Source of the DNA: Sarcomyxa edulis
Lineage: Eukaryota > Basidiomycota > Agaricomycetes > Agaricales > Mycenaceae
Direction of reading: 5' to 3'
Length of the DNA stretch: 64,000 nucleotides
Assembly: GCA_009761415.1 (NCBI GenBank)
Contig: QUOL01000018.1
Coordinates: 1 to 64,000 of the forward strand
Under the pieces are notes generated by a model. The model had not been told where the DNA came from. It saw nothing but the letters and a program-made list of their open reading frames with translations, and did not search any database. The position numbers were made by a program, and so were the translations under genes. Numbering within the stretch: position 1 is the stretch's first letter; the number at the start of each line of letters is the position of its first letter. This document shows positions 1 to 43,947 of the stretch, one piece after another.

Positions 1-3000
1 CCCTAACACTAACATAACGCCGAACGCCTAACACTAACCCTAACCGCTAACTACCCAACCTAACGTCCCAGCTGGGGGGGTAGCGGCTGATTCGATTACG
101 GGTCTAACGGCTTCATCCCTGTTTTACTTGCGTTTTGACCGTTCTTTTGTCTTGTATCGGTCTGTCCACTTCGATGGTTCCCTCTTTGATCTCATATTTT
201 TGCGTCTCTGATGCATACACTTCATCTCGATCTTGGGGTTGCACGGCTGAAGGTTGATTGCCTTCTTGTCTTGCTCTCAGAGTTGGTTTTTCGTTTTTGT
301 CGCAACTGATGCTTTGACCGTTCACTTTGGTCTTGGTGTATGGTTGACGTCTTCTCCACTTCGATGGTTCCCTCTTTGATCCATGATTTTTTACTTTTCT
401 CTCAGACACGTTCTTGGTACTCGCTTTTGCATTCTTGGATGTTCCAAATAACAAGCCAGTGTCTTATTTGGAAAATGCTCTGGCTCCTACTGTTGTGTCA
501 AAGAACGCCCTATTCCGTCACAGGACGCCCTATTCCGTGACCGAACGCCCTATTCCGTCACAAAACACCCTATTCCGTGACATTTCGTGACTGAACGCCC
601 TATTCCGTCACCTTTTTCGTCCGTTTTGCCTTGAAATGACCTCGGGGTTAGTGGAATAGGGCGCCCTATTCCCGGATAAGAAACATAGGGTAGCGGCTGA
701 TTCCGATTACGGGTCTAACGGCTTCATCCCTGTTTCACTTGCGTTTTGACCGTTCTTTGTCTTGATCGTCTTGTATCGGTCTGTCCACTTCGATGGTTCG
801 CTCTTTGATCTGATATTTTTGCGTCTCTGATGCATACACTTCATCTCCATCTTGGCGTTGCACGGCTGAAGGTTGGTCTGCCTTCTTGTCTTGCCTCTCA
901 GAGTCAGTCTCTGTTTTTGTCGCAACTGATGCGTTGACCGTTCACTTTGGTCTTTGTCTCGCGCTTGGTGGATGGTTGACGTCTTCTCCACTTCGATGGT
1001 TCCCTCTTTGATACCTGATTTTTACTTCTCACTCAGACATCTCTTGTCACTCGCTTTTGCGTTTTTTGATGTTTCCAAATAACAAGTCAGTGTCTTATTT
1101 GAAAAATGCTCTGGTTCCCTCTTTGATCCATGATTTTTTACTTTTCTCTCAGACACGTCTTGGTAGTCGCTTTTGCATTCTTGGATGTTCCAAATAACAA
1201 GCCAGTGTCTTATTTGGAAAATGCTCTGGCTCCTACTGTTGTGTCAAAGAACGCCCTATTCCGTCACAGGACGCCCTATTCCGTGACCGAACGCCCTATT
1301 CCGTCACAAAACACCCTATTCCGTGACATTTCGTGACTGAACGCCCTATTCCGTCACCTTTTTCGTCCGTTTTGCCTTGAAATGACCTCGGGGTTAGTGG
1401 AATAGGGCGCCCTATTCCCGGATAAGAAACATAGTGTCTTATTTGGAAAATGCTCTGGCTCCTACTGTTGTGTCAAAGAACGCCCTATTCCGTCACAGGA
1501 CGCCCTATTCCGTGACCGAACGCCCTATTCCGTCACAAAACACCCTATTCCGTGACATTTCGTGACTGAACGCCCTATTCCGTCACCTTTTTCATCCGTT
1601 TTGCCTTGAAATGACCTCGGGGTTAGTGGAATAGGGCGCCCTATTCCCGGATAAGAAACATAGTGTCTTATTTGGAAAATGCTCTGGCTCCTACTGTTGT
1701 GTCAAAGAACGCCCTATTCCGTCACAGGACGCCCTATTCCGTGACCGAACGCCCTATTCCGTCACAAAACACCCTATTCCGTGACATTTCGTGACTGAAC
1801 GCCCTATTCCGTCACCTTTTTCATCCGTTTTGCCTTGAAATGACCTCGGGGTTAGTGGAATAGGGTGCCCTATTCCCGGATAAGAAACATAGTCTTGCCT
1901 CTCAGAGTCAGTTTCTGTTTTTGTCGCAACTGATGCGTTGACCGTTCACTTTGGTCTTTGTCTCGCGCTTGGTGGATGGTTGACGTCTTCTCCACTTCGA
2001 TGGTTCCCTCTTTGATACCTGATTTTTACTTCTCACTCAGACACGCCTTGTCACTCGCTTTTGCGTTTTTTGATGTTTCCAAATAACAAGCCAGTGTCTT
2101 ATTTGAAAAATGCTCTGGTTCCCTCTTTGATCCCTGATTTTTACTTGTCTCTCTCAGACACGTCTTGGTAGTCGCTTTTGCATTCTTGGATGTTCCAAAT
2201 AACAAGCCAGTGTCTTATTTGGAAAATGCTCTGGCTCCTACTGTTGTGTCAAAGAACGCCCTATTCCGTCACAGGACGCCCTATTCCGTGACCGAACGCC
2301 CTATTCCGTCACAAAACACCCTATTCCGTGACATTTCGTGACTGAACGCCCTATTCCGTCACCTTTTTCGTCCGTTTTGCCTTGAAATGACCTCGGGGTT
2401 AGTGGAATAGGGCGCCCTATTCCCGGATAAGAAACATAGTGTCTTATTTGAAAAATGCTCTGGTTCCCTCTTTGATCCCTGATTTTTACTTGTCTCTCTC
2501 AGACACGTCTTGGTACTCGCTTTTGCATTCTTGGATGTTCCAAATAACAAGCCAGTGTCTTATTTGGAAAATGCTCTGGCTCCTACTGTTGTGTCAAAGA
2601 ACGCCCTATTCCGTCACAGGACGCCCTATTCCGTGACCGAACGCCCTATTCCGTCACAAAACACCCTATTCCGTGACATTTCGTGACTGAACGCCCTATT
2701 CCGTCACCTTTTTCGTCCGTTTTGCCTTGAAATGACCTCGGGGTTAGTGGAATAGGGCGCCCTATTCCCGGATAAGAAACATAGGGTAGCGGCTGATTCC
2801 GATTACGGGTCTAACGGCTTCATCCCTGTTTCACTTGCGTTTTGACCGTTCTTTGTCTTGATCGTCTTGTATCGGTCTGTCCACTTCGATGGTTCGCTCT
2901 TTGATCTGATATTTTTGCGTCTCTGATGCATACACTTCATCTCCATCTTGGCGTTGCACGGCTGAAGGTTGGTCTGCCTTCTTGTCTTGCCTCTCAGAGT

Positions 3001-3987
3001 CAGTCTCTGTTTTTGTCGCAACTGATGCGTTGACCGTTCACTTTGGTCTTTGTCTCGCGCTTGGTGGATGGTTGACGTCTTCTCCACTTCGATGGTTCCC
3101 TCTTTGATACCTGATTTTTACTTCTCACTCAGACATCTCTTGTCACTCGCTTTTGCGTTTTTTGATGTTTCCAAATAACAAGTCAGTGTCTTATTTGAAA
3201 AATGCTCTGGTTCCCTCTTTGATCCATGATTTTTTACTTTTCTCTCAGACACGTCTTGGTAGTCGCTTTTGCATTCTTGGATGTTCCAAATAACAAGCCA
3301 GTGTCTTATTTGGAAAATGCTCTGGCTCCTACTGTTGTGTCAAAGAACGCCCTATTCCGTCACAGGACGCCCTATTCCGTGACCGAACGCCCTATTCCGT
3401 CACAAAACACCCTATTCCGTGACATTTCGTGACTGAACGCCCTATTCCGTCACCTTTTTCGTCCGTTTTGCCTTGAAATGACCTCGGGGTTAGTGGAATA
3501 GGGCGCCCTATTCCCGGATAAGAAACATAGTGTCTTATTTGGAAAATGCTCTGGCTCCTACTGTTGTGTCAAAGAACGCCCTATTCCGTCACAGGACGCC
3601 CTATTCCGTGACCGAACGCCCTATTCCGTCACAAAACACCCTATTCCGTGACATTTCGTGACTGAACGCCCTATTCCGTCACCTTTTTCATCCGTTTTGC
3701 CTTGAAATGACCTCGGGGTTAGTGGAATAGGGCGCCCTATTCCCGGATAAGAAACATAGTGTCTTATTTGGAAAATGCTCTGGCTCCTACTGTTGTGTCA
3801 AAGAACGCCCTATTCCGTCACAGGACGCCCTATTCCGTGACCGAACGCCCTATTCCGTCACAAAACACCCTATTCCGTGACATTTCGTGACTGAACGCCC
3901 TATTCCGTCACCTTTTTCATCCGTTTTGCCTTGAAATGACCTCGGGGTTAGTGGAATAGGGTGCCCTATTCCCGGATAAGAAACATA
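1..3987 (+). repeat. Nine left-truncated family-A units
   Basis: The units end at 687, 1433, 1662, 1891, 2438, 2783, 3529, 3758 and 3987. Several are only 229-230 bp long and start at GTGTCTTATTTGG. The block 688-1891 recurs almost unchanged at 2784-3987, so part of this region grew by duplication of multi-unit blocks. The last palindrome of each block (1857-1876 and 3953-3972) carries the same single-base change that breaks its perfect symmetry, which supports the block copying. Confidence 0.85.
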
Positions 3988-5505
3988 TGATCCGGTCGCT
4001 TCTCATAGCGTGACGCTGGGGTAGCTTGGAGTTGTTTCCTTGTCGTTTGTCGTAAATGAGCTCGGGGTTACTCGGGGTTATTTCTGTGCTGTTTGAGCTC
4101 GGGGTTACACGGGGTTATTTCCATGTCGTTTGAACTCGGGGTCACACGGGGTTACTCGGGGTTAGTTTGGACTCACTTGGTGTCGATGGCTCCAAATAGT
4201 GGAGTGTCATCTTATTTGAAACATTGTAACCCTAAGTGTTCTTGCATCAGACTTGGTGTTGGTGACTCAGTTTCCAAATAGTGGGATGTCGTCTTATTTG
4301 GAATGTGAGTCTGACTATGTTGACTTGATCCACAATTCATCTTAGACTTGGTGTTGGTGACTGGTGTTGGTGACTCAGTTTCAAATAGTGGGGTGTCGTC
4401 TTATTTGGAATGTGGGCTGTTAGAGTTTTCTTGGACTTGGTGTTGGTGACTCAGTTTCAAATAGTGGGGCGTCATCTTATTTGGAATGTGGGTCTGACTG
4501 ACTCTGTTGACTTGATCCACAATTGATCTTAGACTTGGTGTTGGTGACTTAGTTTCCAAATAGTGGGGTGCCGTCTTATGTGGAATGTGAGTCTGACTGA
4601 CTATGTTGACTTGATCCACAATTGATTGTGATGCACATTTTATTTTTGAAACGGTCGCTCGTTGACTTGTTTGAGATAGGTCGGTTGCTGACTTGACTGA
4701 CTGTCTGATTTGATGTCTGCACTGATGCTGACTCTGACCTGCACTGATACTGACACTGACACTGACACTCTGACTCTGATACTGACTCGCACTTTTTTTT
4801 TATATGATCCTCAACCCTAACACCTAACACTAACCCGAACGCCTAACACTAACCCTAACCGCCTAACTACCCCAACCCTAACGTCCCAGCTGGGGGGGTA
4901 GCGGCTGATTCCGATTACGGGTCTAACGGCTTCATCCCTGTTTTACTTGCGTTTTGACCGTTCTTTGTCTTGTATCGGTCTGTCCACTTCGATGGTTCCC
5001 TCTTTGATCTCATATTTTTGCGTCTCTGATGCATACACTTCATCTCGATCTTGGGGTTGCACGGCTGAAGGTTGATTGCCTTCTTGTCTTGCCTCTCAGA
5101 GTTGGTTTTTCGTTTTTGTCGCAACCGATGCTTTGACCGTTCACTTTGGTCTTGGTGTATGGTTGACGTCTTCTCCACTTCGATGGTTCCCTCTTTGATC
5201 CATGATTTTTTACTTTTCTCTCAGACACGTCTTGGTACTCGCTTTTGCATTCTTGGATGTTCCAAATAACAAGCCAGTGTCTTATTTGGAAAATGCTCTG
5301 GCTCCTACTGTTGTGTCAAAGAACGCCCTATTCCGTCACAGGACGCCCTATTCCGTGACCGAACGCCCTATTCCGTCACAAAACACCCTATTCCGTGACA
5401 TTTCGTGACTGAACGCCCTATTCCGTCACCTTTTTCATCCGTTTTGCCTTGAAATGACCTCGGGGTTAGTGGAATAGGGCGCCCTATTCCCGGATAAGAA
5501 ACATA
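3988..5505 (+). mobile_element. Full-length family-A unit, copy 1
   Basis: The unit starts TGATCCGG right after the right end of the unit to its left. The same start point recurs at 11456 and 15150, so it is probably the true left end. In order it holds: GGGGTTAC-type short repeats (4040-4170); a tandemly repeated block of about 130-150 bp built on the words TTCAAATAGTGG and CTTGGTGTTGGTGACT (4190-4620); a CTGACA microsatellite (4690-4790); a T-run; a telomere-like tract (4813-4882); the palindrome CCCAGCTGGG; a T-rich stretch repeating TTCGATGGTTCCCTC; CCCTATTCC iterons (5326-5429); the terminal palindrome (5471-5490); and a 15-nt tail. It encodes no recognisable protein, so it must be non-autonomous if mobile. 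Confidence 0.8.
5326..5505 (+). promoter_or_regulatory. Family-A terminal module: iterons, palindrome, tail
   Basis: Five copies of CCCTATTCCGT(C/G)AC at irregular spacing (5326-5429) alternate between GTCAC and GTGAC, which are reverse complements. They are followed by the perfect palindrome GGAATAGGGCGCCCTATTCC (5471-5490) and the tail CGGATAAGAAACATA (5491-5505). The same module closes every longer family-A unit. Iterons next to a hairpin are known from replication origins used by HUH-type initiators. A role in transposition or end replication here is inference. Confidence 0.7.
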
Positions 5506-8500
5506 GGGTAGCGGCTGATTCCGATTACGGGTCTAACGGCTTCATCCCTGTTTTACTTGCGTTTTGACCGTTCTTTGTCTTGTATCGGTCTGTCCACTTC
5601 GATGGTTCCCTCTTTGATCTCATATTTTTGCGTCTCTGATGCATACACTTCATCTCGATCTTGGGGTTGCACGGCTGAAGGTTGATTGCCTTCTTGTCTT
5701 GCCTCTCAGAGTTGGTTTTTCGTTTTTGTCGCAACTGATGCTTTGACCGTTCACTTTGGTCTTGGTGTATGGTTGACGTCTTCTCCACTTCGATGGTTCC
5801 CTCTTTGATCCATGATTTTTTACTTTTCTCTCAGACACGTCTTGGTACTCGCTTTTGCATTCTTGGATGTTCCAAATAACAAGCCAGTGTCTTATTTGGA
5901 AAATGCTCTGGCTCCTACTGTTGTGTCAAAGAACGCCCTATTCCGTCACAGGACGCCCTATTCCGTGACCGAACGCCCTATTCCGTCACAAAACACCCTA
6001 TTCCGTGACATTTCGTGACTGAACGCCCTATTCCGTCACCTTTTTCGTCCGTTTTGCCTTGAAATGACCTCGGGGTTAGTGGAATAGGGCGCCCTATTCC
6101 CGGATAAGAAACATAGGTCTGACTGACTCTGTTGACTTGATCCACAATTGATTGTGATGCACATTTTATTTTTGAAACGGTCGCTCGTTGACTTGTTTGA
6201 GATAGGTCGGTTGCTCACTTGACTGACTGTCTGACTATCTTGATTTTGTATGTGAGTTGATGTCTGCACTGACACTGACACTGACACTCTGACTCTGATA
6301 CTAACTCGCACTTTTTTTTTATATGATCCTCAACCCTAACACCTAACACTAACCCTAACGCCTAACACTAACCCTAACCGCCTAACTACCCCAACCCTAA
6401 CGTCCCAGCTGGGGGGGTAGCGGCTGATTCCGATTACGGGTCTAACGGCTTCATCCCTGTTTCACTTGCGTTTTGACCGTTCTTTGTCTTGTATCGGTCT
6501 GTCCACTTCGATGGTTCCCTCTTTGATCTCATATTTTTGCGTCTCTGATGCATACACTTCATCTCGATCTTGGGGTTGCACGGCTGAAGGTTGATTGCCT
6601 TCTTGTCTTGCCTCTCAGAGTTGGTTTTTCGTTTTTGTCGCAACTGATGCTTTGACCGTTCACTTTGGTCTTGGTGTATGGTTGACGTCTTCTCCACTTC
6701 GATGGTTCCCTCTTTGATCCATGATTTTTTACTTTTCTCTCAGACACGTCTTGTCACTCGCTTTTGCGTTTTTTGATGTTTCCAAATAACAAGCCAGTGT
6801 CTTATTTGAAAAATGCTCTGGTTCCCTCTTTGATCCCTGATTTTTACTTGTCTCTCTCAGACACGTCTTGGTAGTCGCTTTTGCATTCTTGGATGTTCCA
6901 AATAACAAGCCAGTGTCTTATTTGGAAAATGCTCTGGCTCCTACTGTTGTGTCAGAGAACGCCCTATTCCGTCACAGGACGCCCTATTCCGTGACCGAAC
7001 GCCCTATTCCGTCACAAAACACCCTATTCCGTGACATTTCGTGACTGAACGCCCTATTCCGTCACCTTTTTCGTCCGTTTTGCCTTGAAATGACCTCGGG
7101 GTTAGTGGAATAGGGCGCCCTATTCCCGGATAAGAAACATAGCCTCTCAGAGTTGGTTTTTCGTTTTTGTCGCAACTGATGCTTTGACCGTTCACTTTGG
7201 TCTTGGTGTATGGTTGACGTCTTCTCCACTTCGATGGTTCCCTCTTTGATCCATGATTTTTTACTTTTCTCTCAGACACGTCTTGTCACTCGCTTTTGCG
7301 TTTTTTGATGTTTCCAAATAACAAGCCAGTGTCTTATTTGAAAAATACTCTGGTTCCCTCTTTGATCCCTGATTTTTACTTGTCTCTCTCAGACACGTCT
7401 TGGTAGTCGCTTTTGCATTCTTGGATGTTCCAAATAACAAGCCAGTGTCTTATTTGGAAAATGCTCTGGCTCCTACTGTTGTGTCAGAGAACGCCCTATT
7501 CCGTCACAGGACGCCCTATTCCGTGACCGAACGCCCTATTCCGTCACAAAACACCCTATTCCGTGACATTTCGTGACTGAACGCCCTATTCCGTCACCTT
7601 TTTCGTCCGTTTTGCCTTGAAATGACCTCGGGGTTAGTGGAATAGGGCGCCCTATTCCCGGATAAGAAACATAGTGTCTTATTTGGAAAATGCTCTGGCT
7701 CCTACTGTTGTGTCAAAGAACGCCCTATTCCGTCACAGGACGCCCTATTCCGTGACCGAACGCCCTATTCCGTCACAAAACACCCTATTCCGTGACATTT
7801 CGTGACTGAACGCCCTATTCCGTCACCTTTTTCATCCGTTTTGCCTTGAAATGACCTCGGGGTTAGTGGAATAGGGCGCCCTATTCCCGGATAAGAAACA
7901 TAGGGCGCCCTATTCCCGGATAAGAAACATAGTGTCTTATTTGGAAAATGCTCTGGCTCCTACTGTTGTGTCAAAGAACGCCCTATTCCGTCACAGGACG
8001 CCCTATTCCGTGACCGAACGCCCTATTCCGTCACAAAACACCCTATTCCGTGACATTTCGTGACTGAACGCCCTATTCCGTCACCTTTTTCATCCGTTTT
8101 GCCTTGAAATGACCTCGGGGTTAGTGGAATAGGGCGCCCTATTCCCGGATAAGAAACATAGGTCTGACTGACTCTGTTGACTTGATCCACAATTGATTGT
8201 GATGCACATTTTATTTTTGAAACGGTCGCTCGTTGACTTGTTTGAGATAGGTCGGTTGCTCACTTGACTGACTGTCTGACTATCTTGATTTTGTATGTGA
8301 GTTGATGTCTGCACTGACACTGACACTGACACTCTGACTCTGATACTAACTCGCACTTTTTTTTTATATGATCCTCAACCCTAACACCTAACACTAACCC
8401 TAACGCCTAACACTAACCCTAACCGCCTAACTACCCCAACCCTAACGTCCCAGCTGGGGGGGTAGCGGCTGATTCCGATTACGGGTCTAACGGCTTCATC

Positions 8501-9186
8501 CCTGTTTCACTTGCGTTTTGACCGTTCTTTGTCTTGTATCGGTCTGTCCACTTCGATGGTTCCCTCTTTGATCTCATATTTTTGCGTCTCTGATGCATAC
8601 ACTTCATCTCGATCTTGGGGTTGCACGGCTGAAGGTTGATTGCCTTCTTGTCTTGCCTCTCAGAGTTGGTTTTTCGTTTTTGTCGCAACTGATGCTTTGA
8701 CCGTTCACTTTGGTCTTGGTGTATGGTTGACGTCTTCTCCACTTCGATGGTTCCCTCTTTGATCCATGATTTTTTACTTTTCTCTCAGACACGTCTTGTC
8801 ACTCGCTTTTGCGTTTTTTGATGTTTCCAAATAACAAGCCAGTGTCTTATTTGAAAAATGCTCTGGTTCCCTCTTTGATCCCTGATTTTTACTTGTCTCT
8901 CTCAGACACGTCTTGGTAGTCGCTTTTGCATTCTTGGATGTTCCAAATAACAAGTCAGTGTCTTATTTGGAAAATGCTCTGGCTCCTACTGTTGTGTCAG
9001 AGAACGCCCTATTCCGTCACAGGACGCCCTATTCCGTGACCGAACGCCCTATTCCGTCACAAAACACCCTATTCCGTGACATTTCGTGACTGAACGCCCT
9101 ATTCCGTCACCTTTTTCGTCCGTTTTGCCTTGAAATGACCTCGGGGTTAGTGGAATAGGGCGCCCTATTCCCGGATAAGAAACATA
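5506..9186 (+). repeat. Left-truncated family-A units
   Basis: Right ends are at 6115, 7141, 7673, 7902, 7931, 8160 and 9186. The units start at different internal points of the full-length element: 5506 just before the GTAGCGG motif, 6116 and 8161 at GGTCTGACTG, 7142 at GCCTCTCAG, and 7903 in the middle of the terminal palindrome. The unit at 7903-7931 is therefore only 29 bp long. Confidence 0.85.
6332..6401. repeat. Telomere-like tract inside family-A units
   Basis: This is an irregular run of CCCTAA, CACTAA and CGCCTAA words. Equivalent tracts lie at 1-75 (left edge), 4813-4882, 8376-8447, 10096-10167, 12124-12194, 15890-15960 and 16735-16805. All are embedded at the same place in a unit, so they are carried by the element and are not independent chromosome ends. 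They read as the C-rich strand towards the chromosome interior, which fits a left chromosome end. Confidence 0.8.
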
Positions 9187-9443
9187 GGGTATACATAGTG
9201 TTTTGGGTTGCCTGAACGTCGTGCCGCAGTCAAAATTTGGATCCAAGCATGTTGGCGCCGGGGCTCCCGATGGCTGGCTAGGCGCCGGCGCTTATGGGCC
9301 TGCTGTGAGCTCAAACCAGAGGTGTTTTGCAAATGCTCTTGGGCACAAGGTCCTGGGACCCTAACACAACTTTTCAGATGCCTACGGGCCGAAACACCTG
9401 ACCCTTCTTAACGGGCCCCCCCGTTAAGGGCCTAATTAGAGTA
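9187..9443 (+). mobile_element. Family-D unit
   Basis: This 257-bp GC-rich segment is unrelated in sequence to family A but sits in the array in the same way. It ends with a 9-bp hairpin (arms CTTAACGGG 9407-9415 and CCCGTTAAG 9420-9428, loop CCCC) and a 15-nt tail GGCCTAATTAGAGTA, after which a truncated family-A unit starts with G at 9444. Only one copy is seen, and its left end may be truncated. Confidence 0.6.
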
Positions 9444-11455
9444 GGTTACTCGGGGTTATTTCTGTGCTGTTTGAGCTCGGGGTTACACGGGGTTATTTCC
9501 ATGTCGTTTGAACTCGGGGTTACTCGGGGTTAGTTTGGACTCACTTGGTGTCGATGGCTCCAAATAGTGGAGTGTCATCTTATTTGAAACATTGTAACCC
9601 TAAGTGTTCTTGCATCAGACTTGGTGTTGGTGACTCAGTTTCAAATAGTGGGATGTCGTCTTATTTGGAATGCGAGTCTGACTATGTTGACTTGATCCAC
9701 AATTCATCTTAGACTTGGTGTTGGTGACTGGTGTTGGTGACTCAGTTTCAAATAGTGGGGCGTCATCTTATTTGGAATGTGGGTCTGACTGACTCTGTTG
9801 AGTTGATCCACAATTGATCTTAGACTTGGTGTTGGTGACTTAGTTTCCAAATAGTGGGGTGCCGTCTTATGTGGAATGTGAGTCTGACTGACTATGTTGA
9901 CTTGATCCACAATTGATTGTGATGCACATTTTATTTTTGAAACGGTCGCTCGTTGACTTGTTTGAGATAGGTCGGTTGCTCACTTGACTGACTGTCTGAC
10001 TATCTTGATTTTGTATGTGAGTTGATGTCTGCACTGACACTGACACTGACACTCTGACTCTGATACTAACTCGCACTTTTTTTTTATATGATCCTCAACC
10101 CTAACACCTAACACTAACCCTAACGCCTAACACTAACCCTAACCGCCTAACTACCCCAACCCTAACGTCCCAGCTGGGGGGGTAGCGGCTGATTCCGATT
10201 ACGGGTCTAACGGCTTCATCCCTGTTTCACTTGCGTTTTGACCGTTCTTTGTCTTGATCGTCTTGTATCGGTCTGTCCACTTCGATGGTTCGCTCTTTGA
10301 TCTGATATTTTTGCGTCTCTGATGCATACACTTCATCTCCATCTTGGGGTTGCACGGCTGAAGGTTGGTCTGCCTTCTTGTCTTGCCTCTCAGAGTCAGT
10401 CTCTGTTTTTGTCGCAACTGATGCGTTGACCGTTCACTTTGGTCTTTGTCTCGCGCTTGGTGGATGGTTGACGTCTTCTCCACTTCGATGGTTCCCTCTT
10501 TGATACCTGATTTTTACTTCTCACTCAGACATCTCTTGTCACTCGCTTTTGCGTTTTTTGATGTTTCCAAATAACAAGTCAGTGTCTTATTTGAAAAATG
10601 CTCTGGTTCCCTCTTTGATCCATGATTTTTTACTTTTCTCTCAGACACGTCTTGGTAGTCGCTTTTGCATTCTTGGATGTTCCAAATAACAAGCCAGTGT
10701 CTTATTTGGAAAATGCTCTGGCTCCTACTGTTGTGTCAAAGAACGCCCTATTCCGTCACAGGACGCCCTATTCCGTGACCGAACGCCCTATTCCGTCACA
10801 AAACACCCTATTCCGTGACATTTCGTGACTGAACGCCCTATTCCGTCACCTTTTTCGTCCGTTTTGCCTTGAAATGACCTCGGGGTTAGTGGAATAGGGC
10901 GCCCTATTCCCGGATAAGAAACATAGTGTCTTATTTGGAAAATGCTCTGGCTCCTACTGTTGTGTCAAAGAACGCCCTATTCCGTCACAGGACGCCCTAT
11001 TCCGTGACCGAACGCCCTATTCCGTCACAAAACACCCTATTCCGTGACATTTCGTGACTGAACGCCCTATTCCGTCACCTTTTTCATCCGTTTTGCCTTG
11101 AAATGACCTCGGGGTTAGTGGAATAGGGCGCCCTATTCCCGGATAAGAAACATAGGGCGCCCTATTCCCGGATAAGAAACATAGTGTCTTATTTGGAAAA
11201 TGCTCTGGCTCCTACTGTTGTGTCAAAAAACGCCCTATTCCGTCACAGGACGCCCTATTCCGTGACCGAACGCCCTATTCCGTCACAAAACACCCTATTC
11301 CGTGACATTTCGTGACTGAACGCCCTATTCCGTCACCTTTTTCATCCGTTTTGCCTTGAAATGACCTCGGGGTTAGTGGAATAGGGCGCCCTATTCCCGG
11401 ATAAGAAACATAGGGTTAGTGGAATAGGGCGCCCTATTCCCGGATAAGAAACATA
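9444..11455 (+). repeat. Left-truncated family-A units
   Basis: Right ends are at 10925, 11154, 11183, 11412 and 11455. The first unit (9444-10925) is nearly full length and starts at GGTTACTCGG inside the short-repeat region. The last (11413-11455) is a 43-bp remnant starting just before the terminal palindrome. Confidence 0.85.
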
Positions 11456-12940
11456 TAATCCGGTCGCTTCTCATAGCGTGACACTGGGGTAGCTTGGAGT
11501 TGTTTCCTTGTCCTTTGTCGTAAATGAGCTCGGGGTTACTCGGGGTTATTTCTGTGCTGTTTGAGCTCGGGGTTACACGGGGTTATTTCCATGTCGTTTG
11601 AACTCGGGGTTACACGGGGTTATTTCCGTGTTGTTTCAGCTCGAAGTTACTCGGGGTTGGTTTGGACTCACTTGGTGTCGATGGCTCCAAATAGTGGAGT
11701 GTCATCTTATTTGAAACATTGTAACCCTAAGTGTTCTTGCATCAGACTTGGTGTTGGTGACTCAGTTTCAAATAGTGGGATGTCGTCTTATTTGGAATGT
11801 GAGTCTGACTATGTTGACTTGATCCACAATTCATCTTAGACTTGGTGTTGGTGACTGGTGTTGGTGACTCACTTTCAAATAGTGGGGCGTCATCTTATTT
11901 GGAATGTGGGTCTGACTGACTCTGTTGACTTGATCCACAATTGATTGTGATGCACATTTTATTTTTGAAACGGTCGCTCGTTGACTTGTTTGAGATAGAT
12001 CGGTTGCTCACTTGACTGACTGTCTGACTATCTTGATTTTGTATGTGAGTTGATGTCTGCACTGACACTGACACTGACACTCTGACTCTGATACTAACTC
12101 GCACTTTTTTTTTATATGATCCTCAACCCTAACACCTAACACTAACCCTAACGCCTAACACTAACCCTAACCGCCTAACTACCCCAACCCTAACGTCCCA
12201 GCTGGGGGGGTAGCGGCTGATTCCGATTACGGGTCTAACGGCTTCATCCCTGTTTCACTTGCGTTTTGACCGTTCTTTGTCTTGATCGCCTTGTATCGGT
12301 CTGTCCACTTCGATGGTTCGCTCTTTGATCTGATATTTTTGCGTCTCTGATGCATACACTTCATCTCAATCTTGGGGTTGCACGGCTGAAGGTTGATTGC
12401 CTTCTTGTCTTACCTCTCAGAGTTAGTTTTTCGTTTTTGTCGCAACTGATGCTTTGACCGTTCACTTTGGTCTTGGTGTATGGTTGACGTCTTCTCCACT
12501 TCGATGGTTCCCTCTTTGATACCTGATTTTTACTTCTCACTCAGACACGCCTTGTCACTCGCTTTTGCGTTTTTTGATGTTTCCAAATAACAAGTCAGTG
12601 TCTTATTTGAAAAATGCTCTGGTTCCCTCTTTGATCCCTGATTTTTACTTCTCACTCAGACACGTCTTGGTACTCGCTTTTGCATTCTTGGATGTTCCAA
12701 ATAACAAGCCAGTGTCTTATTTGGAAAATGCTCTGGCTCCTACTGTTGTGTCAAAGAACGCCCTATTCCGTCACAGGACGCCCTATTCCGTGACCGAACG
12801 CCCTATTCCGTCACAAAACACCCTATTCCGTGACATTTCGTGACTGAACGCCCTATTCCGTCACCTTTTTCGTCCGTTTTGCCTTGAAATGACCTCGGGG
12901 TTAGTGGAATAGGGCGCCCTATTCCCGGATAAGAAACATA
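11456..12940 (+). mobile_element. Full-length family-A unit, copy 2
   Basis: It has the same left end as the units at 3988 and 15150 except for one base (TAATCCGG), the telomere-like tract at about 12124-12194, and the terminal palindrome at 12906-12925. It is the innermost unit of the main A block. To its right begins a different family (C1). Confidence 0.8.
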
Positions 12941-14806
12941 GCGATTTTGCGCGATAATTCAAATCATTATCGTGATTTGAAGAGGACTTACCGTAGATCG
13001 ACGTCTGATAGTGGCGCGGTATCCCTATGAAGTTGAGTCTGGGCTGAACCTGAATATTTCGAGTAATTAATTTTTTGGACGCGTTTCTAGGCTTGCAGAA
13101 CTAAAACGTACCTGTTTTCGAGGCTTTTCTTGATGCGACGCGGTTGGAAAACGAGGGGTAAGAGATGGACGCCAACGAGAATTGGACTTAGAGTGAATGC
13201 GGACTGGGCTGAGGCTTGGGATTCAAACACGAGTAAACCGGCTTGAAAGTGCCGAATGTTACCCGATCCCGGAATTCCCGGGATCCGTGTGACGTGACGT
13301 CACAGCCTCGAGAACACAGACAAAACAAATCATCCCACTATGAATTATATACCAAAAAATCGGGAAAAAATGCGAATAAATTTTAGAAATATCATGGATC
13401 AGATGTAGGATCTCAACAAGAGGCTTTGACACATAAGTACTGCTGCACTCATAAAATAATTGACATTCAAGTCAGAAACACATATATACCAAGGCATCAA
13501 TAAGTTTGCGGGTGTACACGGATGACGGGAAGTATTAGTATACTCTCAAAATATATCATGCAACACTTATTGGCCAGAGCGGTGAGCTGAAACAACTCTA
13601 AACTCAGGTTTTGAAAGTAGTCACATAAGTCACAGCATAATGTGCGTATATGGAAATGAATTGACACACACTGCCAAAGAAGACCCAAGATAACCCTAAG
13701 TGCCTCTGACCTGAATGATAACTCTAACACCAACCCTAACTCTCCTAACCCTGAAGACATGGTTTTTTTTTTTTTTATGCACCTAGACCCAAACCGCTAA
13801 CACTAACCCTAACTTCTAACACTAACCCTAACCCTCCTAACATCCTAGTTTTGAGTTGACAGCTAATTCCTAGTCTTTGGGAGTCTGCAGCATGATATTG
13901 ATCCCCCTGAGGGCAGATCCGGTAGCATTTTAATAGTTCGCTGGCTTGGAAAATGAATTATCTGACCGTGGGAAAGTAAGATAATCTGTATATACCATCA
14001 TGATCGGAATCATCAAGTTTCCTAGGTAGGTTTTTTTTTTGAAACCTGAATGTCAAAACCCGTGTAATACGGCAGATGATACCAAAGTGATACCATTGAT
14101 ACCAAGCTTGATACCATTCGATACCAGCTTAATAGTGGGCAGGACTGGCTGAACCAATATACACCAAAATTTGAGGGTACAGAGATATACCCTATCCAAT
14201 GAACTCCTCAAATTCCCACGGTCATCGGATGCTATATAGTGGCAGCGCAGCCTCTTTAATATTCTAAATCTCAATTTAACGATTATTTTGCTATAAAACA
14301 AGGTGTGCCTCTGCCTATACTCAACCCAAAAATATGAAACTTTGTGTGGAGTATCTGATGATGTATCCAAACATATTCCAAAGAGAAAGTATGCAAACGT
14401 ACATGCTCTCACTTCACTCGGTGCCCCATATCATTGAGATTCTTCCCAAATCCAAATCAGCTCTAGCGGGGTGGGATATATAGGTACCTCATAAATCTCT
14501 CTGGTTTGGGTGTTCTTTATAACCCAAAAATACATACCATTCAAAAAAATAGTGAAATTCCCCAGGCGCGGGTCAGCGCAGCATTTCGGTATCGGATGAA
14601 AAGTGCTTACGCCTGCTCTGTGGAAATGAGGCTATTATATATTAAGGGTATATACATATAGGTAAAAATTTTATATTTTCCGGAAGCTGAGATGCGTGCG
14701 CTCACTTTCTGATACTTTTTATGACATTTGGATACAGGCGCAGGTCAGCGCAGCTCAATTCCCAAAAGTTTTGCCAATGCCCCATCGGCAAAATTCCAAG
14801 AAGATA
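12941..14806 (+). mobile_element. Family-C1 unit, long copy
   Basis: The unit starts GCGATTTTGC after a family-A end. It contains a diverged telomere-like tract (about 13722-13850) followed by a motif resembling family A (GACAGCTAATTCC against GGTAGCGGCTGATTCC). It ends with a hairpin of arms TTTTGCC (14769-14775) and GGCAAAA (14787-14793), an ATG/CAT inner pair around CCC, and the 13-nt tail TTCCAAGAAGATA. The 400 bp before the right end recur at 17706-18123. Short open frames here have no recognisable family. Confidence 0.65.
13722..13850. repeat. Diverged telomere-like tract of family C1
   Basis: Words such as ACCCTAACTCTCCTAACCCT and CTAACACTAACCCTAACTTC flank a run of T. It occupies the same relative place in the C1 unit as the tract in family A, upstream of a GCTAATTCC motif, so families A and C probably share an ancestor. 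Confidence 0.6.
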
Positions 14807-15149
14807 GTCTTATTTGAAAAATGCTCTGGTTCCCTCTTTGATCCCTGATTTTTACTTGTCTCTCTCAGACACGTCTTGGTAGTCGCTTTTGCATTCTTGG
14901 ATGTTCCAAATAACAAGCCAGTGTCTTATTTGGAAAATGCTCTGGCTCCTACTGTTGTGTCAAAGAACGCCCTATTCCGTCACAGGACGCCCTATTCCGT
15001 GACCGAACGCCCTATTCCGTCACAAAACACCCTATTCCGTGACATTTCGTGACTGAACGCCCTATTCCGTCACCTTTTTCGTCCGTTTTGCCTTGAAATG
15101 ACCTCGGGGTTAGTGGAATAGGGCGCCCTATTCCCGGATAAGAAACATA
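14807..15149 (+). repeat. Left-truncated family-A unit
   Basis: It begins GTCTTATTTG directly after the C1 tail and ends with the standard family-A palindrome (15115-15134) and tail. It shows that A units were placed to the right of C1 units as well as to the left. Confidence 0.8.
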
Positions 15150-16700
15150 TGATCCGGTCGCTTCTCATAGCGTGACGCTGGGGTAGCTTGGAGTTGTTTC
15201 CTTGTCGTTTGTCGTAAATGAGCTCGGGGTTACTCGGGGTTATTTCTGTGCTGTTTGAGCTCGGGGTTACACGGGGTTATTTCCATGTCGTTTGAACTCG
15301 GGGTTACACGGGGTTACTCGGGGTTAGTTTGGACTCACTTGGTGTCGATGGCTCCAAATAGTGGAGTGTCATCTTATTTGAAACATTGTAACCCTAAGTG
15401 TTCTTGCATCAGACTTGGTGTTGGTGACTCAGTTTCAAATAGTGGGATGTCGTCTTATTTGGAATGTGAGTCTGACTATGTTGACTTGATCCACAATTCA
15501 TCTTAGACTTGGTGTTGGTGACTGGTGTTGGTGACTCAGTTTCAAATAGTGGGGCGTCATCTTATTTGGAATGTGGGTCTGACTGACTCTGTTGACTTGA
15601 TCCACAATTGATCTTAGACTTGGTGTTGGTGACTTAGTTTCCAAATAGTGGGGTGCCGTCTTATGTGGAATGTGAGTCTGACTGACTATGTTGACTTGAT
15701 CCACAATTGATTGTGATGCACATTTTATTTTTGAAACGGTCGCTCGTTGACTTGTTTGAGATAGGTCGGTTGCTCACTTGACTGACTGTCTGACTATCTT
15801 GATTTTGTATGTGAGTTGATGTCTGCACTGACACTGACACTGACACTCTGACTCTGATACTAACTCGCACTTTTTTTTTATATGATCCTCAACCCTAACA
15901 CCTAACACTAACCCTAACGCCTAACACTAACCCTAACCGCCTAACTACCCCAACCCTAACGTCCCAGCTGGGGGGGTAGCGGCTGATTCCGATTACGGGT
16001 CTAACGGCTTCATCCCTGTTTTACTTGCGTTTTGACCGTTCTTTGTCTTGTATCGGTCTGTCCACTTCGATGGTTCCCTCTTTGATCTCATATTTTTGCG
16101 TCTCTGATGCATACACTTCATCTCGATCTTGGGGTTGCACGGCTGAAGGTTGATTGCCTTCTTGTCTTGCCTCTCAGAGTTGGTTTTTCGTTTTTGTCGC
16201 AACTGATGCTTTGACCGTTCACTTTGGTCTTGGTGTATGGTTGACGTCTTCTCCACTTCGATGGTTCCCTCTTTGATCCATGATTTTTTACTTTTCTCTC
16301 AGACACGTCTTGTCACTCGCTTTTGCGTTTTTTGATGTTTCCAAATAACAAGCCAGTGTCTTATTTGAAAAATGCTCTGGTTCCCTCTTTGATCCCTGAT
16401 TTTCACTTGTCTCTCTCAGACACGTCTTGGTAGTCGCTTTTGCATTCTTGGATGTTCCAAATAACAAGCCAGTGTCTTATTTGGAAAATGCTCTGGCTCC
16501 TACTGTTGTGTCAAAGAACGCCCTATTCCGTCACAGGACGCCCTATTCCGTGACCGAACGCCCTATTCCGTCACAAAACACCCTATTCCGTGACATTTCG
16601 TGACTGAACGCCCTATTCCGTCACCTTTTTCGTCCGTTTTGCCTTGAAATGACCTCGGGGTTAGTGGAATAGGGCGCCCTATTCCCGGATAAGAAACATA
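15150..16700 (+). mobile_element. Full-length family-A unit, copy 3
   Basis: It starts TGATCCGG at the point shared with 3988. The telomere-like tract is at 15890-15960, the terminal palindrome at 16666-16685 and the right end at 16700. Family-A fragments lie on both sides (14807-15149 and 16701-17545), themselves bounded by C-family units, so the A and C families alternate along the array. Confidence 0.8.
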
Positions 16701-17545
16701 GATACTAACTCGCACTTTTTTTTTATATGATCCTCAACCCTAACACCTAACACTAACCCTAACGCCTAACACTAACCCTAACCGCCTAACTACCCCAACC
16801 CTAACGTCCCAGCTGGGGGGGTAGCGGCTGATTCCGATTACGGGTCTAACGGCTTCATCCCTGTTTTACTTGCGTTTTGACCGTTCTTTGTCTTGTATCG
16901 GTCTGTCCACTTCGATGGTTCCCTCTTTGATCTCATATTTTTGCGTCTCTGATGCATACACTTCATCTCGATCTTGGGGTTGCACGGCTGAAGGTTGATT
17001 GCCTTCTTGTCTTGCCTCTCAGAGTTGGTTTTTCGTTTTTGTCGCAACTGATGCTTTGACCGTTCACTTTGGTCTTGGTGTATGGTTGACGTCTTCTCCA
17101 CTTCGATGGTTCCCTCTTTGATCCATGATTTTTTACTTTTCTCTCAGACACGTCTTGTCACTCGCTTTTGCGTTTTTTGATGTTTCCAAATAACAAGCCA
17201 GTGTCTTATTTGAAAAATGCTCTGGTTCCCTCTTTGATCCCTGATTTTCACTTGTCTCTCTCAGACACGTCTTGGTAGTCGCTTTTGCATTCTTGGATGT
17301 TCCAAATAACAAGCCAGTGTCTTATTTGGAAAATGCTCTGGCTCCTACTGTTGTGTCAAAGAACGCCCTATTCCGTCACAGGACGCCCTATTCCGTGACC
17401 GAACGCCCTATTCCGTCACAAAACACCCTATTCCGTGACATTTCGTGACTGAACGCCCTATTCCGTCACCTTTTTCGTCCGTTTTGCCTTGAAATGACCT
17501 CGGGGTTAGTGGAATAGGGCGCCCTATTCCCGGATAAGAAACATA
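16701..17545 (+). repeat. Left-truncated family-A unit
   Basis: It starts GATACTAACTCGC, just upstream of the telomere-like tract (16735-16805), and ends with the palindrome 17511-17530 and tail. Confidence 0.8.
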
Positions 17546-17605
17546 GGCGTAGCCCCAAACTTTTCAAATTGGAAAATGCGGCATCTTCCAACTTCTAAGT
17601 TATTA
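17546..17605 (+). repeat. Family-C2 unit, 60-bp remnant
   Basis: The last 60 bases match the end of the longer C2 unit at 18124-18543. The terminal hairpin has arms GGAA (17571-17574) and TTCC (17586-17589), one mismatch, ATG/CAT pairs and a CGG loop, then a 16-nt tail AACTTCTAAGTTATTA. Confidence 0.6.
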
Positions 17606-17705
17606 GAAATATGCATGAGTATACAGTGCGGTGTTTAGGCCTCATTTTTCCAAAAAAAATTAAATTTTGAGAAATCAAGCTTGATTTCTGGAGGGAATAC
17701 TAGTA
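17606..17705 (+). repeat. Family-E unit, 100-bp remnant
   Basis: It ends with the perfect 20-bp palindrome AGAAATCAAGCTTGATTTCT (17670-17689) and the 16-nt tail GGAGGGAATACTAGTA, followed by G. The sequence is unrelated to families A-D, but the terminal plan is the same. Only one copy is seen. Confidence 0.6.
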
Positions 17706-18123
17706 GTATGCAAACGTACATGTTCTCACTTCACTCGGTGCCCCCTATCATTGAGATTCTTTCCAAATCCAAATCAGCTCTAGAGGGGTGGGATATATAG
17801 CTATCTCATAAATCTCTCTGGTTTAGGTGTTCTTTATATCCCAAAAATACATACCATTCAAAAAAATAGTGAAATTCCCAAGGCGCGGGTCAGCGCAGCA
17901 TTTCGGTATCGGATGAAAAGTGCTTACGCCTGCTCTGTGGAAATGAGGCTATTATATATTAAGGGTATATACATATAGGTGAAAATTTTATATTTTCCGG
18001 AAGCTGAGATGTGTGCGCTCACTTTCTGATACCTTTTATGACATTTGGATACAGGCGCAGGTCAGCGCAGCTCAATTCCCAAAAGTTTTGCCAATGCCCC
18101 ATCGGCAAAATTCCAAGAAGATA
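17706..18123 (+). repeat. Family-C1 unit, left-truncated
   Basis: It matches 14390-14806 with a few substitutions and shares the terminal hairpin (18086-18110) and the tail TTCCAAGAAGATA. Confidence 0.75.
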
Positions 18124-18543
18124 GGCCCATAGAAGATTCAGCCGCTGACAACATCACCCGCTTGCAATGAACAATAAAGTATGGGCCAAACTTAAATGCA
18201 GTATTATAGACTATGCTCTATACATGGTCACCAATGCTTTTGGGAGGGGTGTCACATGACCATATATTCTATCCCCAAGTCAAAACATTTCGTGTTTTCT
18301 TCTTCCTTTGCCTTGGCGTAGCCTGGTATCACCAAATTTCCCATTTAGTACCTCTGAATCTTTGTGGCTAGAAAATAATAACACCAAATATACATACATG
18401 ATATTTTTATATTTTCTGGAAGCCAAGACGTATACATTCGCACTGGTATAAAATTTATGATGTATTGTATACCGGAGTACCTTGGCATAGCCCCAAACTT
18501 TTCAAATCGGAAAATGCGGCATCTTCCAACTTCTAAGTTATTA
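18124..18543 (+). mobile_element. Family-C2 unit
   Basis: The unit ends at the hairpin 18509-18527 and the 16-nt tail AACTTCTAAGTTATTA. Its last 150 bp align loosely with those of C1 and C3 (a TATTTTCTGGAAGCC-like block, then a GCGTAGCC-like block), so the three C families look related. Confidence 0.6.
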
Positions 18544-18961
18544 GATTTTTACTTCTCACTCAGACACGCCTTGTCACTCGCTTTTGCGTTTTTTGATGTT
18601 TCCAAATAACAAGCCAGTGTCTTATTTGAAAAATGCTCTGGTTCCCTCTTTGATCCCTGATTTTTACTTGTCTCTCTCAGACACGTCTTGGTAGTCGCTT
18701 TTGCATTCTTGGATGTTCCAAATAACAAGCCAGTGTCTTATTTGGAAAATGCTCTGGCTCCTACTGTTGTGTCAAAGAACGCCCTATTCCGTCACAGGAC
18801 GCCCTATTCCGTGACCGAACGCCCTATTCCGTCACAAAACACCCTATTCCGTGACATTTCGTGACTGAACGCCCTATTTCGTCACCTTTTTCGTCCGTTT
18901 TGCCTTGAAATGACCTCGGGGTTAGTGGAATAGGGCGCCCTATTCCCGGATAAGAAACATA
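18544..18961 (+). repeat. Innermost family-A unit, left-truncated
   Basis: It starts GATTTTTACTTC after the C2 tail and ends with the palindrome 18927-18946 and the standard tail. One iteron carries a T for C change (CCCTATTTCG), which suggests an older copy. Confidence 0.8.
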
Positions 18962-20110
18962 GTGTTTCTGATATAAAACTACTGGTCCATGACAAGATCA
19001 TTCAGCCTTTGGTTCTAAGAAAACATGAGTGAGAAAGCAATGTAAAATCAAGAACCAAACTTACATGAACAAATGCTGCATTGAGTTGTGCCTGTAGAAA
19101 GATCAGAAAAGAAAGAAAGATAGGTTCAACAACAAAAAGACAGACTGCCAAGTCCAGAGCAGCTTGATTGTTCTGAACAAAAAAGGGTACAAATATGAAT
19201 GAGGAAGGACAGAGAATAGAAAGAAAACGACTTGCTGTGTTGTATGGAATTGGATGACATTCTTGGACCATGTAAGGATGAGCAAAGACTTGAGTCTAAC
19301 AGCAGACTATATGTGTGAGATGGAGCAGATATAGTAGATAAAAACTGACCTGAGCTTGTACAATACCAGAGCCCATTTGAGAGCAAGGCATCACATCTGT
19401 CACAACCTACAGAAAGGTGGGACAGGTGATGGATGAGATATGAGATGATGAACTTACCAGTGACTGAGAGGTGCCCTGAATAGGGGTTGCAGAAATAGGG
19501 GTTGCCTGGGATGATGAGTGAATAAGCAGGATACTGACAGATATAACACATGACAAAGAACAGACTTGGGGAGAGGACATTGACACTGGAACAATGAAAG
19601 GAAAAAGTAGGGGATGGTGGGGGAAAGAGGGAAGAAAGGAAGAGCTAAAGCTCAGGTATTTATATCAAAATAGGAGGATATAAAAATAGATGGTAACTGC
19701 CAAGACCGTTGTTATGCTTGGCCAATGAGCTTCTCAAGCCTTATTTGTAGGGGATAAAATACATACAGACTGCAGACAACCCAATGCAGCAGGTGCATTG
19801 AGTCTGAATAGAGTTTGTATCTGTATCAAGTCATTTGGCTATCTCTCTCGACTCAATTCTGTGTACCCTTGTGATGAGGTCTCTTGAAATTGATGTCAGT
19901 CATGTCGTGTGAATGATCTACTTGTCCTACACTGGTGAGTCTGTCGATGGTGCTTTTGTGAACGTCTTTGTAGCAATGCATAGCATGCACAATGAATCGG
20001 CATTGCATGTTGGAACTGAAGGTACGTAAAGTAAGATAGAGCACCGTGAAATCAAGATGTCGTCGCACAAAGTTTATATGTCTGAAATGTAGCAGATATA
20101 AAAATTGCTA
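18962..20110 (+). mobile_element. Family-F unit
   Basis: This segment lies between a family-A end and the first family-B start. Its right end has an imperfect inverted repeat (TTATATGTCTG ... CAGATATAA, 20070-20100) and a short tail AAATTGCTA followed by G. A related motif occurs at about 19307-19332 and inside family B. Small open frames on the minus strand around 19000-19550 are not recognisable. The boundaries are less certain than for the other families, and F and B may be one element. Confidence 0.4.
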
Positions 20111-20568
20111 GAGCGGTTCTCCAAGCATCACTTTACTGACGCATAATAGATTGTTCAGGCGTAATATATAGTATGACATTATATTTGTATGACTACATAT
20201 GACGGTGAACATATATGCAGACTGAGACTCAAACAGTCAGGTGGTTGAACCAAGTCTATATGTGTGAGACTGAGCAGATATATGAAGCCAAGATAGATGG
20301 AGTAGAGATTGGTTTCTACAAGAGTGATACAGTGTAGGTGCAGTTTTGAGTCTATATGTGTGAGAGTTGGCAGATATAGAATGTACATATTTTGAGACAG
20401 AACACATCTGATGGAATAGGGAATTTCAATTCCCCTTTTCCAAGAAACCACTCGTGTGTTGGAATAGGGGGCTAAATAAAGCCCTATTCCACAGATTTTT
20501 CGCCAAATTAGGCCCAATTAGGCCACAAAAGATGGAATAGGGTACCCTATTCCAGGATCAGAAGGATA
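20111..20568 (+). mobile_element. Family-B unit, copy 1
   Basis: This 458-bp unit ends with the perfect palindrome GGAATAGGGTACCCTATTCC (20534-20553) and the 15-nt tail AGGATCAGAAGGATA. A second hairpin, GGAATAGGG ... CCCTATTCC, lies upstream (about 20461-20491). It is tandemly repeated at 20569-21026 with about 95 per cent identity judged by eye. Its palindrome differs from that of family A only in the two central bases, and its tail resembles the family-A tail. Confidence 0.75.
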
Positions 20569-21026
20569 GAACGGTTCTCCAAGCATCACTTTACTGACGC
20601 ATAACAGATTGTTCAGGCGTAATATGTAGTATGACATTATATTTGTATGACTATATATGACGGTGAACATGTATGCAAACTGAGACTCAAATAGTCAGGT
20701 GGTTGAACCAAGTCTATATGTGTGAGAATGAGCAGATATATGAAGCCAAGATAGATGGAGTAGAGATTGGTTTCTACAAGAGTGATACAGTGTAGGTGCA
20801 GTTTTGAGTTTATATGTGTGAGAGTTGGCACATATAGAATGTACATATTTTGAGACAGAACACATCTGATGGAATAGGGAATTTCAATTCCCCTTTTCCA
20901 AGATACCACTCGTGTGTTGGAATAGGGGGCTAAATAATGCCCTATTCCACAGATTTTTTGCCAAATTAGGCCCAATTAGGCCAAAAAAAATGGAATAGGG
21001 TACCCTATTCCAGGATCAGAAGGATA
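20569..21026 (+). mobile_element. Family-B unit, copy 2
   Basis: It is a second copy of the 458-bp unit, starting GAACGGTTCTCC (copy 1 has GAGCGG) and ending with the palindrome 20992-21011 and the same tail. Both copies start at the same point, so this may be the true left end or the result of a tandem duplication. Confidence 0.75.
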
Positions 21027-21960
21027 GCGGTTAGCGGCTAATTCCGATTTCTTGTCTGAAGGCTTAATCCTAGTCTTTGTGCATAATCAGAGTAAACTCT
21101 GATTATAATAACACTGACTGCTAATATTGAAAACTTGACCGTGGGAATATTTTGGAATGTGCATATACCATCATGACCGGAATCATGACATTTCATAACA
21201 AGGTTTTTTTCTTGAAATCTGTACTTCGAAACTGGTCTTATACGGATAATGCAATTATAATGCTGTTAAATGCTTATTAATTCAAGCCAAATATTCCTGC
21301 AGGTTCATTGGCTGGACCGATGGACATGAAATTTTTTGAGGGTAGGCGTATGCATATTAGAACTATATTCCCAAAGTTTCAAGGTTGGCGCACACTATAC
21401 AGGTGCTGGCGTAGCTATATAATGGGTGGAAAATAGGAATTTGGGTGTAAACTGGCAATGGCGCAGAGGTATATACACAAGAAAATTTCCAAACTCTGCG
21501 GTAGTCAGCTCTGGACATATACGCTGGTATTTCAAAAGAAACCTAAGGATTTGGACGGATACCCGCGCCCTACGCTTAGATACAACTTTGGCATTCTGGC
21601 CAAAGTTAAATATGCATATATAGGCTACGCCTTATATATTTTTATGAATGGACTCTTGGGACGGGTCACCTGACCATGTACGCCAACCCTCATTTCAAAA
21701 AAAGTGGGTATATAGCAAGGCGTACCCAGGCGTAGCCTGTTCTTTCAGCCAAATCAGATTTCTGACACCTCTGGATGTTTGTGGCTGAAACCAAACAAAG
21801 GCAAACACATACACATCAGATTTTTGCATTTTCCGGAAGCCAAGAAGCATACGCTCATGACGGTATAACTTTTTTGACATATTGCATACGGGCGTAGCCA
21901 GGCGTAGCTTGAAACTTTCCAAGCCGGACAATGGGGCATTGTCAAATTTCCCACCCATTA
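21027..21960 (+). mobile_element. Family-C3 unit, innermost of the array
   Basis: It starts near GCGGTTAGCGGCTAATTCCG, which resembles the GTAGCGGCTGATTCCG of family A. It ends with a hairpin GACAATG/CATTGTC around GGG (21927-21943) and the 17-nt tail AAATTTCCCACCCATTA. The next base is G, and from there the sequence is ordinary gene-region DNA. This is the inner boundary of the array. Confidence 0.65.
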
Positions 21961-43600: not shown

Positions 43601-43947
43601 CGTCTGGGTGCATCGAGTAGGTAGACGTAGTTTGAGGATGGGATTTGAAGCGCCCAATGGCCGCCAGCACATCCGAGTCTGACGTAAATCTCCGACTTGG
43701 AAATCTATGCAATTTCGGAGCTGTATACAATTTTGAGGCTAATAACAAGTCATTGCAGACATATATCCTGAAGTGAGTACTAGATATTCGAGGGATACAA
43801 CTGCACAGAGTTACAATAACATCCACCCAAGATCATTCCATCAATCCAACTTTACCCCAAGTACTCTCCCACCGATTTTAACATAGTAATCATCTTTTGA
43901 AGGCTTGAGAAAGCAGTATCAGATAGATAATATAAGTATGCACATAC

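Follow-up and report, generated by a model that had tools for sequence, protein, structure and literature searches.

The window analysed here comprises 64,000 nucleotides of Sarcomyxa edulis DNA (assembly GCA_009761415.1, contig QUOL01000018.1, positions 1 to 64,000) and is the start of contig C10 in a genome of 35.6 Mb and 40 contigs. Its first 21,960 positions are a subtelomeric array on the + strand, delimited from a segment table and right-end positions, in which mostly left-truncated elements lie head to tail with the telomere side to the left. One element family, F, has a coding member elsewhere in the genome that carries a telomere-linked helicase (TLH) gene with a predicted tyrosine recombinase (YR) region. 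With a rough probability of 0.48, we propose that the array is composed of chromosome-end mobile elements moved by the TLH YR, which would join their hairpin ends to G, with families A, C1-C3, D and E served in trans. Contigs C1-C40 are distinct from the element families C1, C2 and C3, and L numbers denote fetched loci.

The F element and its helicase gene

The coding member lies at the end of contig C13, where a RecQ-type helicase gene beneath the telomere is oriented toward it; on the 5' side of the gene, an F end meets a cut A copy at a G. The F element of the window (9187..9443, + strand) is truncated at G and ends in a hairpin CTTAACGGG/CCCGTTAAG and the tail GGCCTAATTAGAGTA (9407..9443). 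It aligns with the region 5' of the contig C13 TLH gene (L056) at 59% over 234 columns (E 4.6e-8) with the end included; without the hairpin and tail the local score is 40, compared to 20 or less in 300 shuffles and 18 or less in 24 control pieces. Furthermore, the TLH main exon occurs 14 times in the genome, and an F tail is found 3.4-4.4 kb on its 5' side, on the opposite strand, in 13 of these. The initial annotation had described a non-autonomous group at a chromosome end, which is supported for the non-coding window array and misses this coding member; it had also suggested a search for an autonomous partner with the same right end. Such an end is present as the F edge of the TLH element, and neither RepHel nor reverse transcriptase (RT) was found in that role among the matches read.

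TLH genes are themselves found in cut form beneath these ends. Joints as read show a TLH gene cut at G beneath an F end (L071) and beneath a C1-like end (L072), and by position an A end plus G meets a cut TLH gene near 604,722 of contig C13. An N-terminal query adds two further cut copies, and in five cut copies the telomere side of the gene is gone. The contig C13 copy stands directly below (CCCTAA)n and the other full copies are 1-50 kb from a contig end.

The TLH protein contains, in order, a C2H2-type (OrsD) region, the YR region and a RecQ-type helicase. Its frames match PF00270 (E 1.3e-10) and PF00271 (E 6.4e-9), and RecQ chains were recovered by sequence and by fold. The middle region is predicted to have the YR catalytic fold, and at the positions that we take to be catalytic in YRs, the residues R, K, R, H/W and Y are conserved in 38/38 rows of alignment A1 and in 47-50 of the 50 rows of alignment A2. 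PDB searches recovered no YR, returning helicases and one chance row for the TLH exon and helicases and ribosomal rows for a 50-row TLH profile. Similarly, neither predicted model had a significant YR row in Foldseek, and Pfam YR and captain models, including DUF3435, had no match up to E 1 in four TLH frames. A remote kinship with Starship captains could nevertheless exist. Apart from this predicted YR, no DNA-joining type of enzyme was found within these elements. A more distant TLH-like family, with 25-29% identity, is also present at C30:3253-4071, C30:43506-45208 and C7:773539-773847; the stretch on contig C30 (L080) retains the K, the box-II Arg and a Tyr, and this second family might be paired with a different set of ends.

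Right ends, joints and chromosome ends

In total the array has 36 right ends, which fall into seven types (A 27, E 2, C1 2, C2 2, C3 1, D 1, F 1), each a hairpin or palindrome followed by a tail ending in TA, and all 36 are on the + strand, with none on the - strand of the whole window. The initial annotation had counted 37 ends in at least eight families; its common end plan and single orientation hold for every end counted, while both of its numbers were too high.

Fold energies differ from dinucleotide shuffles by z -2.4 to -4.7 for C1 (two ends), D, E and four of five F ends, and the case for hairpins rests more on base changes that preserve pairing. Across C1, C2 and C3, compared as four distinct rows only, the stem is kept via double changes in four of ten pairs, one of them the outermost pair including G-U, and 85% of cells are paired, which was matched by 6 of 500 shuffles and compares with 27.5-45% in slid versions. 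Among F ends the tail CCTAATTAGAGTA is constant and the stem varies: F1 and F3 differ by four double changes, and the outer two pairs are missing from F1; a single mismatch is present in F3b, and the stem of F2 is an entirely different one.

The window and 15 of the fetched loci gave 45 distinct joint types. G is the first base in 42 of them, T in two, both full-length A starts (TGATCC and TAATCC), and A in the remaining one (L078); the A unit as a whole is 23% G. A G-ending pattern was used to retrieve six of the eight F joint types, so the first G of these six is selected, and when F is left out 34/37 types begin with G. GG stands at all eight F joint types, including the window F end at 9443, whereas A joints need only G, and thus the target bases required may not be the same for all end families. 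Of the exact A/E tails in the genome, 202 have G as the next base and 78 run into the full-length start; the full-length joint of TA to TGATCC may trace to one amplified founder. In most truncated copies the joint G is the copy's own base when aligned to the unit, and the joint therefore has at least that base in common with what the end supplies. Telomere repeats begin none of the 45 joint types.

When up to two mismatches are allowed, the genome contains 286 A/E ends (159 on +, 127 on -), compared to none for a reversed-pattern control. Positions were examined for 100 of these 286, 100 of the 202 followed by G and all 78 with the full-length start, in overlapping sets. Judged by reading positions, with contig ends as a proxy for chromosome ends and the nearer end of contigs C2 and C15 deduced from other matches, the listed places are on + toward contig starts or on - toward contig ends. 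The 87 genome matches of window positions 1-3000 follow the same rule, as do 27/27 F ends on contigs of known length; of the five other F ends, those on contigs C15, C18 and C23 also fit. Apart from relics on contigs C21 and C28 and some copies on contig C29, there are no internal copies with these right ends among the places listed; an internal match at 1.31 Mb on contig C12 spans the telomere-like block only, without a right end. The confinement to telomere-near places in one orientation, about which the initial annotation had asked, is thus borne out among listed places except for these misfits, and the many randomly oriented internal copies that would have spoken against it were not seen there. 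Contig C35 also carries copies of family C1.

Telomere repeats were read at the end of contig C13 and the starts of contigs C37 and C40 and matched at other contig ends (302 matches, with positions from the first 100). At the start of contig C37 true repeats pass directly into the internal telomere-like block of the A unit (L060), and at the start of contig C40 the telomere meets a copy beginning with G. By match positions, the telomere also seems to enter this block at the starts of contigs C38, C23 and C39 and at the end of contig C40. It is as if the block acts as a telomere seed; an origin from telomerase RNA can only be speculated. Perfect telomere repeats were also seen inside contig C9 (C9:679855-679920), 14 kb from its end and between A right ends, and inside contig C3 (C3:1226330-1226377), 10 kb from its end.

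The fixed edge 5' of the YR gene, the one-sided truncation and the mixed F/A/C joints point to a single joining machinery for all families.

Composition of the array

The A and B bodies, treated as separate families in the initial annotation, are one 1514-bp unit that forms a head-to-tail tandem on contig C14, where two neighbours are identical and 2141-bp spaced blocks are also found. All features described here are on the + strand unless stated. Full A units are located at 3988..5505 (start TGATCCGG, end GGATAAGAAACATA; previously divided into B and A), 11456..12940 (start TAATCCGG) and 15150..16700 (start TGATCCGG). An example of the right end, with palindrome GGAATAGGGCGCCCTATTCC and tail CGGATAAGAAACATA, is at 653..687, and a degenerate, CCCTAAC-like telomere-like block is visible in the sequence of the A unit at 4814..4884. 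Successive A segments have a common right end and varying start points, and the shortest copy, 29 nt with G as its first base, retains only the hairpin part and tail (7903..7931). Nested insertion is disfavoured because the A segments, by length, extend from their start through to the right end.

A family C1 element truncated at G (12941..14806) includes further degenerate telomere-like blocks related to that of the A unit (13719..13850) and ends in a hairpin and 13-nt tail (14769..14806); copies on contigs C1 and C38 extend further left. A 60-nt family C2 piece with its right end (17546..17605) is followed by a D piece with palindrome AGAAATCAAGCTTGATTTCT and a tail ending ACTAGTA (17606..17705), a truncated C1 copy (17706..18123) and another C2 copy (18124..18543), both with right ends. 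Between an A right end and an E element lies a segment without other match in the genome search (18962..19756), which holds the only ATG open reading frame (ORF) of at least 100 aa in 1-21960 (19126-19551, - strand, 141 aa); by eye its start resembles a secreted protein. The E element (19757..20568), whose matches on contigs C2, C29 and C40 begin at the identical base, precedes an E copy truncated at G (20569..21026) and a family C3 element truncated at G (21027..21960), with the final right end before non-array DNA.

These bodies had been regarded as unrelated and united only by their right-end plan. Similarities between C1 and C3 (75% over 110 bp), C2 and C3 (71% over 184 bp), A and C3 (81% over 42 bp) and B and C1 (74% over 145 bp), an end palindrome common to A and E, and the homology of F to the TLH region do not support this as stated. 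Families C1, C2 and C3 are interrelated, and are linked to the A unit via the degenerate telomere-like stretch and a short adjoining stretch.

A blind scan for a hairpin, a 9-18 nt tail and TA followed by G, which leaves out right ends with T next, found 35 places on the + strand of 1-22000, some of them spurious, and 12 on the - strand, nine of which are one hairpin spanning the commonest A-A joint. The same scan found one + and five - places in 22001-64000. Searching 1-22500 against Rfam returned seven matches at E 1 or lower, each under its curated score and none of them a hammerhead.

Weighing the explanations

The coding member F has a single constant boundary on the 5' side of its TLH gene, consisting of a hairpin, a short TA-ending tail and an adjoining G. 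In the proposed mechanism, the YR would recognise the hairpin by shape rather than by sequence, as single strands exposed by the helicase, and would cut just past the TA, after which the end would be joined to a G in another chromosome end. DNA distal to the target G would be replaced by the incoming segment with its own telomere or telomere-like block. We infer this order of events, and exchange rather than copying. Repeated rounds would produce one-way arrays whose older members are cut at G on the telomere side, and A, C1-C3, D and E, non-coding families with a like edge, would be acted on in trans.

Several observations do not fit the general pattern or give it little weight. The TLH copy at C4:18175 has no F tail by exact pattern (1 of 14). 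The listed copies on contig C29 (86.7 kb) are without exception on -; of its F ends, the one at 43760 is closer to the contig end and the one at 36751 closer to the start. E and C3 matches at 31-36 kb on this contig are also misfits, as are old relics on contig C28 and on contig C21, nearer its start. For A, C2 (two ends), C3, F2 (L075) and the C1-like end of L072, which was fetched in part, the z of the fold energy lies no lower than between -0.5 and -1.7.

Retrotransposition primed by the chromosome end, as exemplified by HeT-A/TART of Drosophila or by Penelope-like elements (PLEs) without an endonuclease, is an unlikely explanation, yet the most credible of the alternatives. Here a + strand RNA finishing with the hairpin and ...UAG would pair through its last base or bases with a C at the very 3' end of the chromosome, and outward copying would leave copies short on the telomere side. 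The same polarity and one-sided truncation follow from this route, and the one-base overlap at A joints and the GG of the F joints suit pairing of an RNA end. Telomeric PLEs or long interspersed nuclear elements (LINEs) in other fungi, and also subtelomeric or telomere-linked helicases, are reported in PMC7473861, PMC4522978 and PMC12857005. However, no RT was found in the array, where the single ORF of at least 100 aa sits in genome-unmatched DNA, and neither 3' poly(A) or telomere repeats nor an RT ORF is seen in the tails, joints and ORFs of 1-21960. The joints are without telomere repeats, and in the sole coding element with this layout the gene runs antisense to the RNA presumed here. Eight of 111 RVT_1 genome matches were read and none was Penelope-like by eye: these places on contigs C13, C38, C5, C39 (two), C16 (two) and C1 resemble Ngaro/DIRS, Tad and gypsy by motifs that we presume to be diagnostic. 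By position, three RVT_1 places are in or distal to arrays, namely C1:4137.7k (gypsy-like on reading), C12:14552 (score and length equal to a genome-wide set) and C38:58201. HeT-A/TART, MoTeR, FoTeR and Coprina-type elements resemble the array in polarity, head-to-tail arrangement and telomere-side truncation, and differ from it in that no RT was found here and in the joint, which here is a hairpin and TA followed by G with no poly(A) or telomere repeats.

Ordinary subtelomere dynamics, in which breakage, telomere loss, break-induced replication and unequal exchange carry TLH along as in yeast Y', is also improbable, marginally more so than the retrotransposition route. The identical tandem units and spaced blocks on contig C14 show that homologous exchange operates on the arrays, and the 78 non-G A joints have one common start sequence with one variable base, so one founder could have been amplified. 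However, neither a constant hairpin-and-tail boundary on the centromere side nor a G start in 42/45 joint types, as one rule across end types, is predicted by such dynamics.

Helitrons characteristically have a hairpin close to their 3' end, which finishes in CTRR, and insert between A and T. A Helitron-like rolling-circle group with one active end is very improbable, as despite 33 Helitron_like_N genome matches the ends of all seven window types finish in TA, mostly with G next, rather than in CTRR, as the initial annotation had recognised, no Helitron_like_N match was found on C10:1-22000 or in four TLH frames, and 20 short Helitron loci and seven stretches contain none of the A, E, C1, C2 and C3 tails, a weak test with element ends unmapped. 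No common end was seen in these seven stretches around six Helitron loci, again with element ends unmapped. The Helitron frames fall into about three length classes, and Helitron-type loci at contig ends (C34:1349-9999 and contig C38 from 1762000) are 99.9% identical over 8.65 kb.

Returning to the YR-based proposal, the elements can be placed beside three known systems. Like known TLH genes and yeast Y', the TLH genes here encode a RecQ-type helicase near telomeres in many near-identical copies, with cut copies common; they differ in that they have a YR-like domain and belong to an element with a fixed hairpin edge as on non-coding families. In Starships the YR gene lies near one fixed edge and reads inward, and the TLH element shares this DNA-level arrangement with Starship and Crypton elements, but differs in its chromosome-end location, one variable end, RecQ fusion and lack of a Pfam YR or captain match. 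The integron YR IntI acts on folded attC hairpins of varied sequence and joins at G; if our model holds, the likeness would be a YR recognising varied folded hairpins and joining at G, in a eukaryotic, telomeric setting, with evidence for common ancestry limited to the YR-like fold.

To our knowledge, fungal TLHs have no settled role. They have been known since at least 1998, according to a reference in PMC7473861, and the YR-like domain and hairpin edge are added here. No mention of a recombinase domain in TLHs was found in search listings of open-licence literature or in passages of PMC7473861, PMC9674265, PMC4522978, PMC12857005 and PMC10799480, which is weak evidence. Mushroom TLHs might tentatively be seen as transposases, that is, YR-RecQ proteins that exchange or add entire chromosome ends in a single site-specific joining of a shape-recognised hairpin to G, with non-coding satellites bearing the same edge, although we hold this general form with less confidence than the reading of the array itself. 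The recombinase-like domain and fixed mobile-element edge make the role of TLHs directly testable. If true, this would be a third route of chromosome-end rebuilding besides telomerase and retrotransposons. It would also help to explain the polymorphic subtelomeres of mushrooms, would make chromosome ends a new target class for YR elements, and would provide a DNA-based way for such ends to be renewed.

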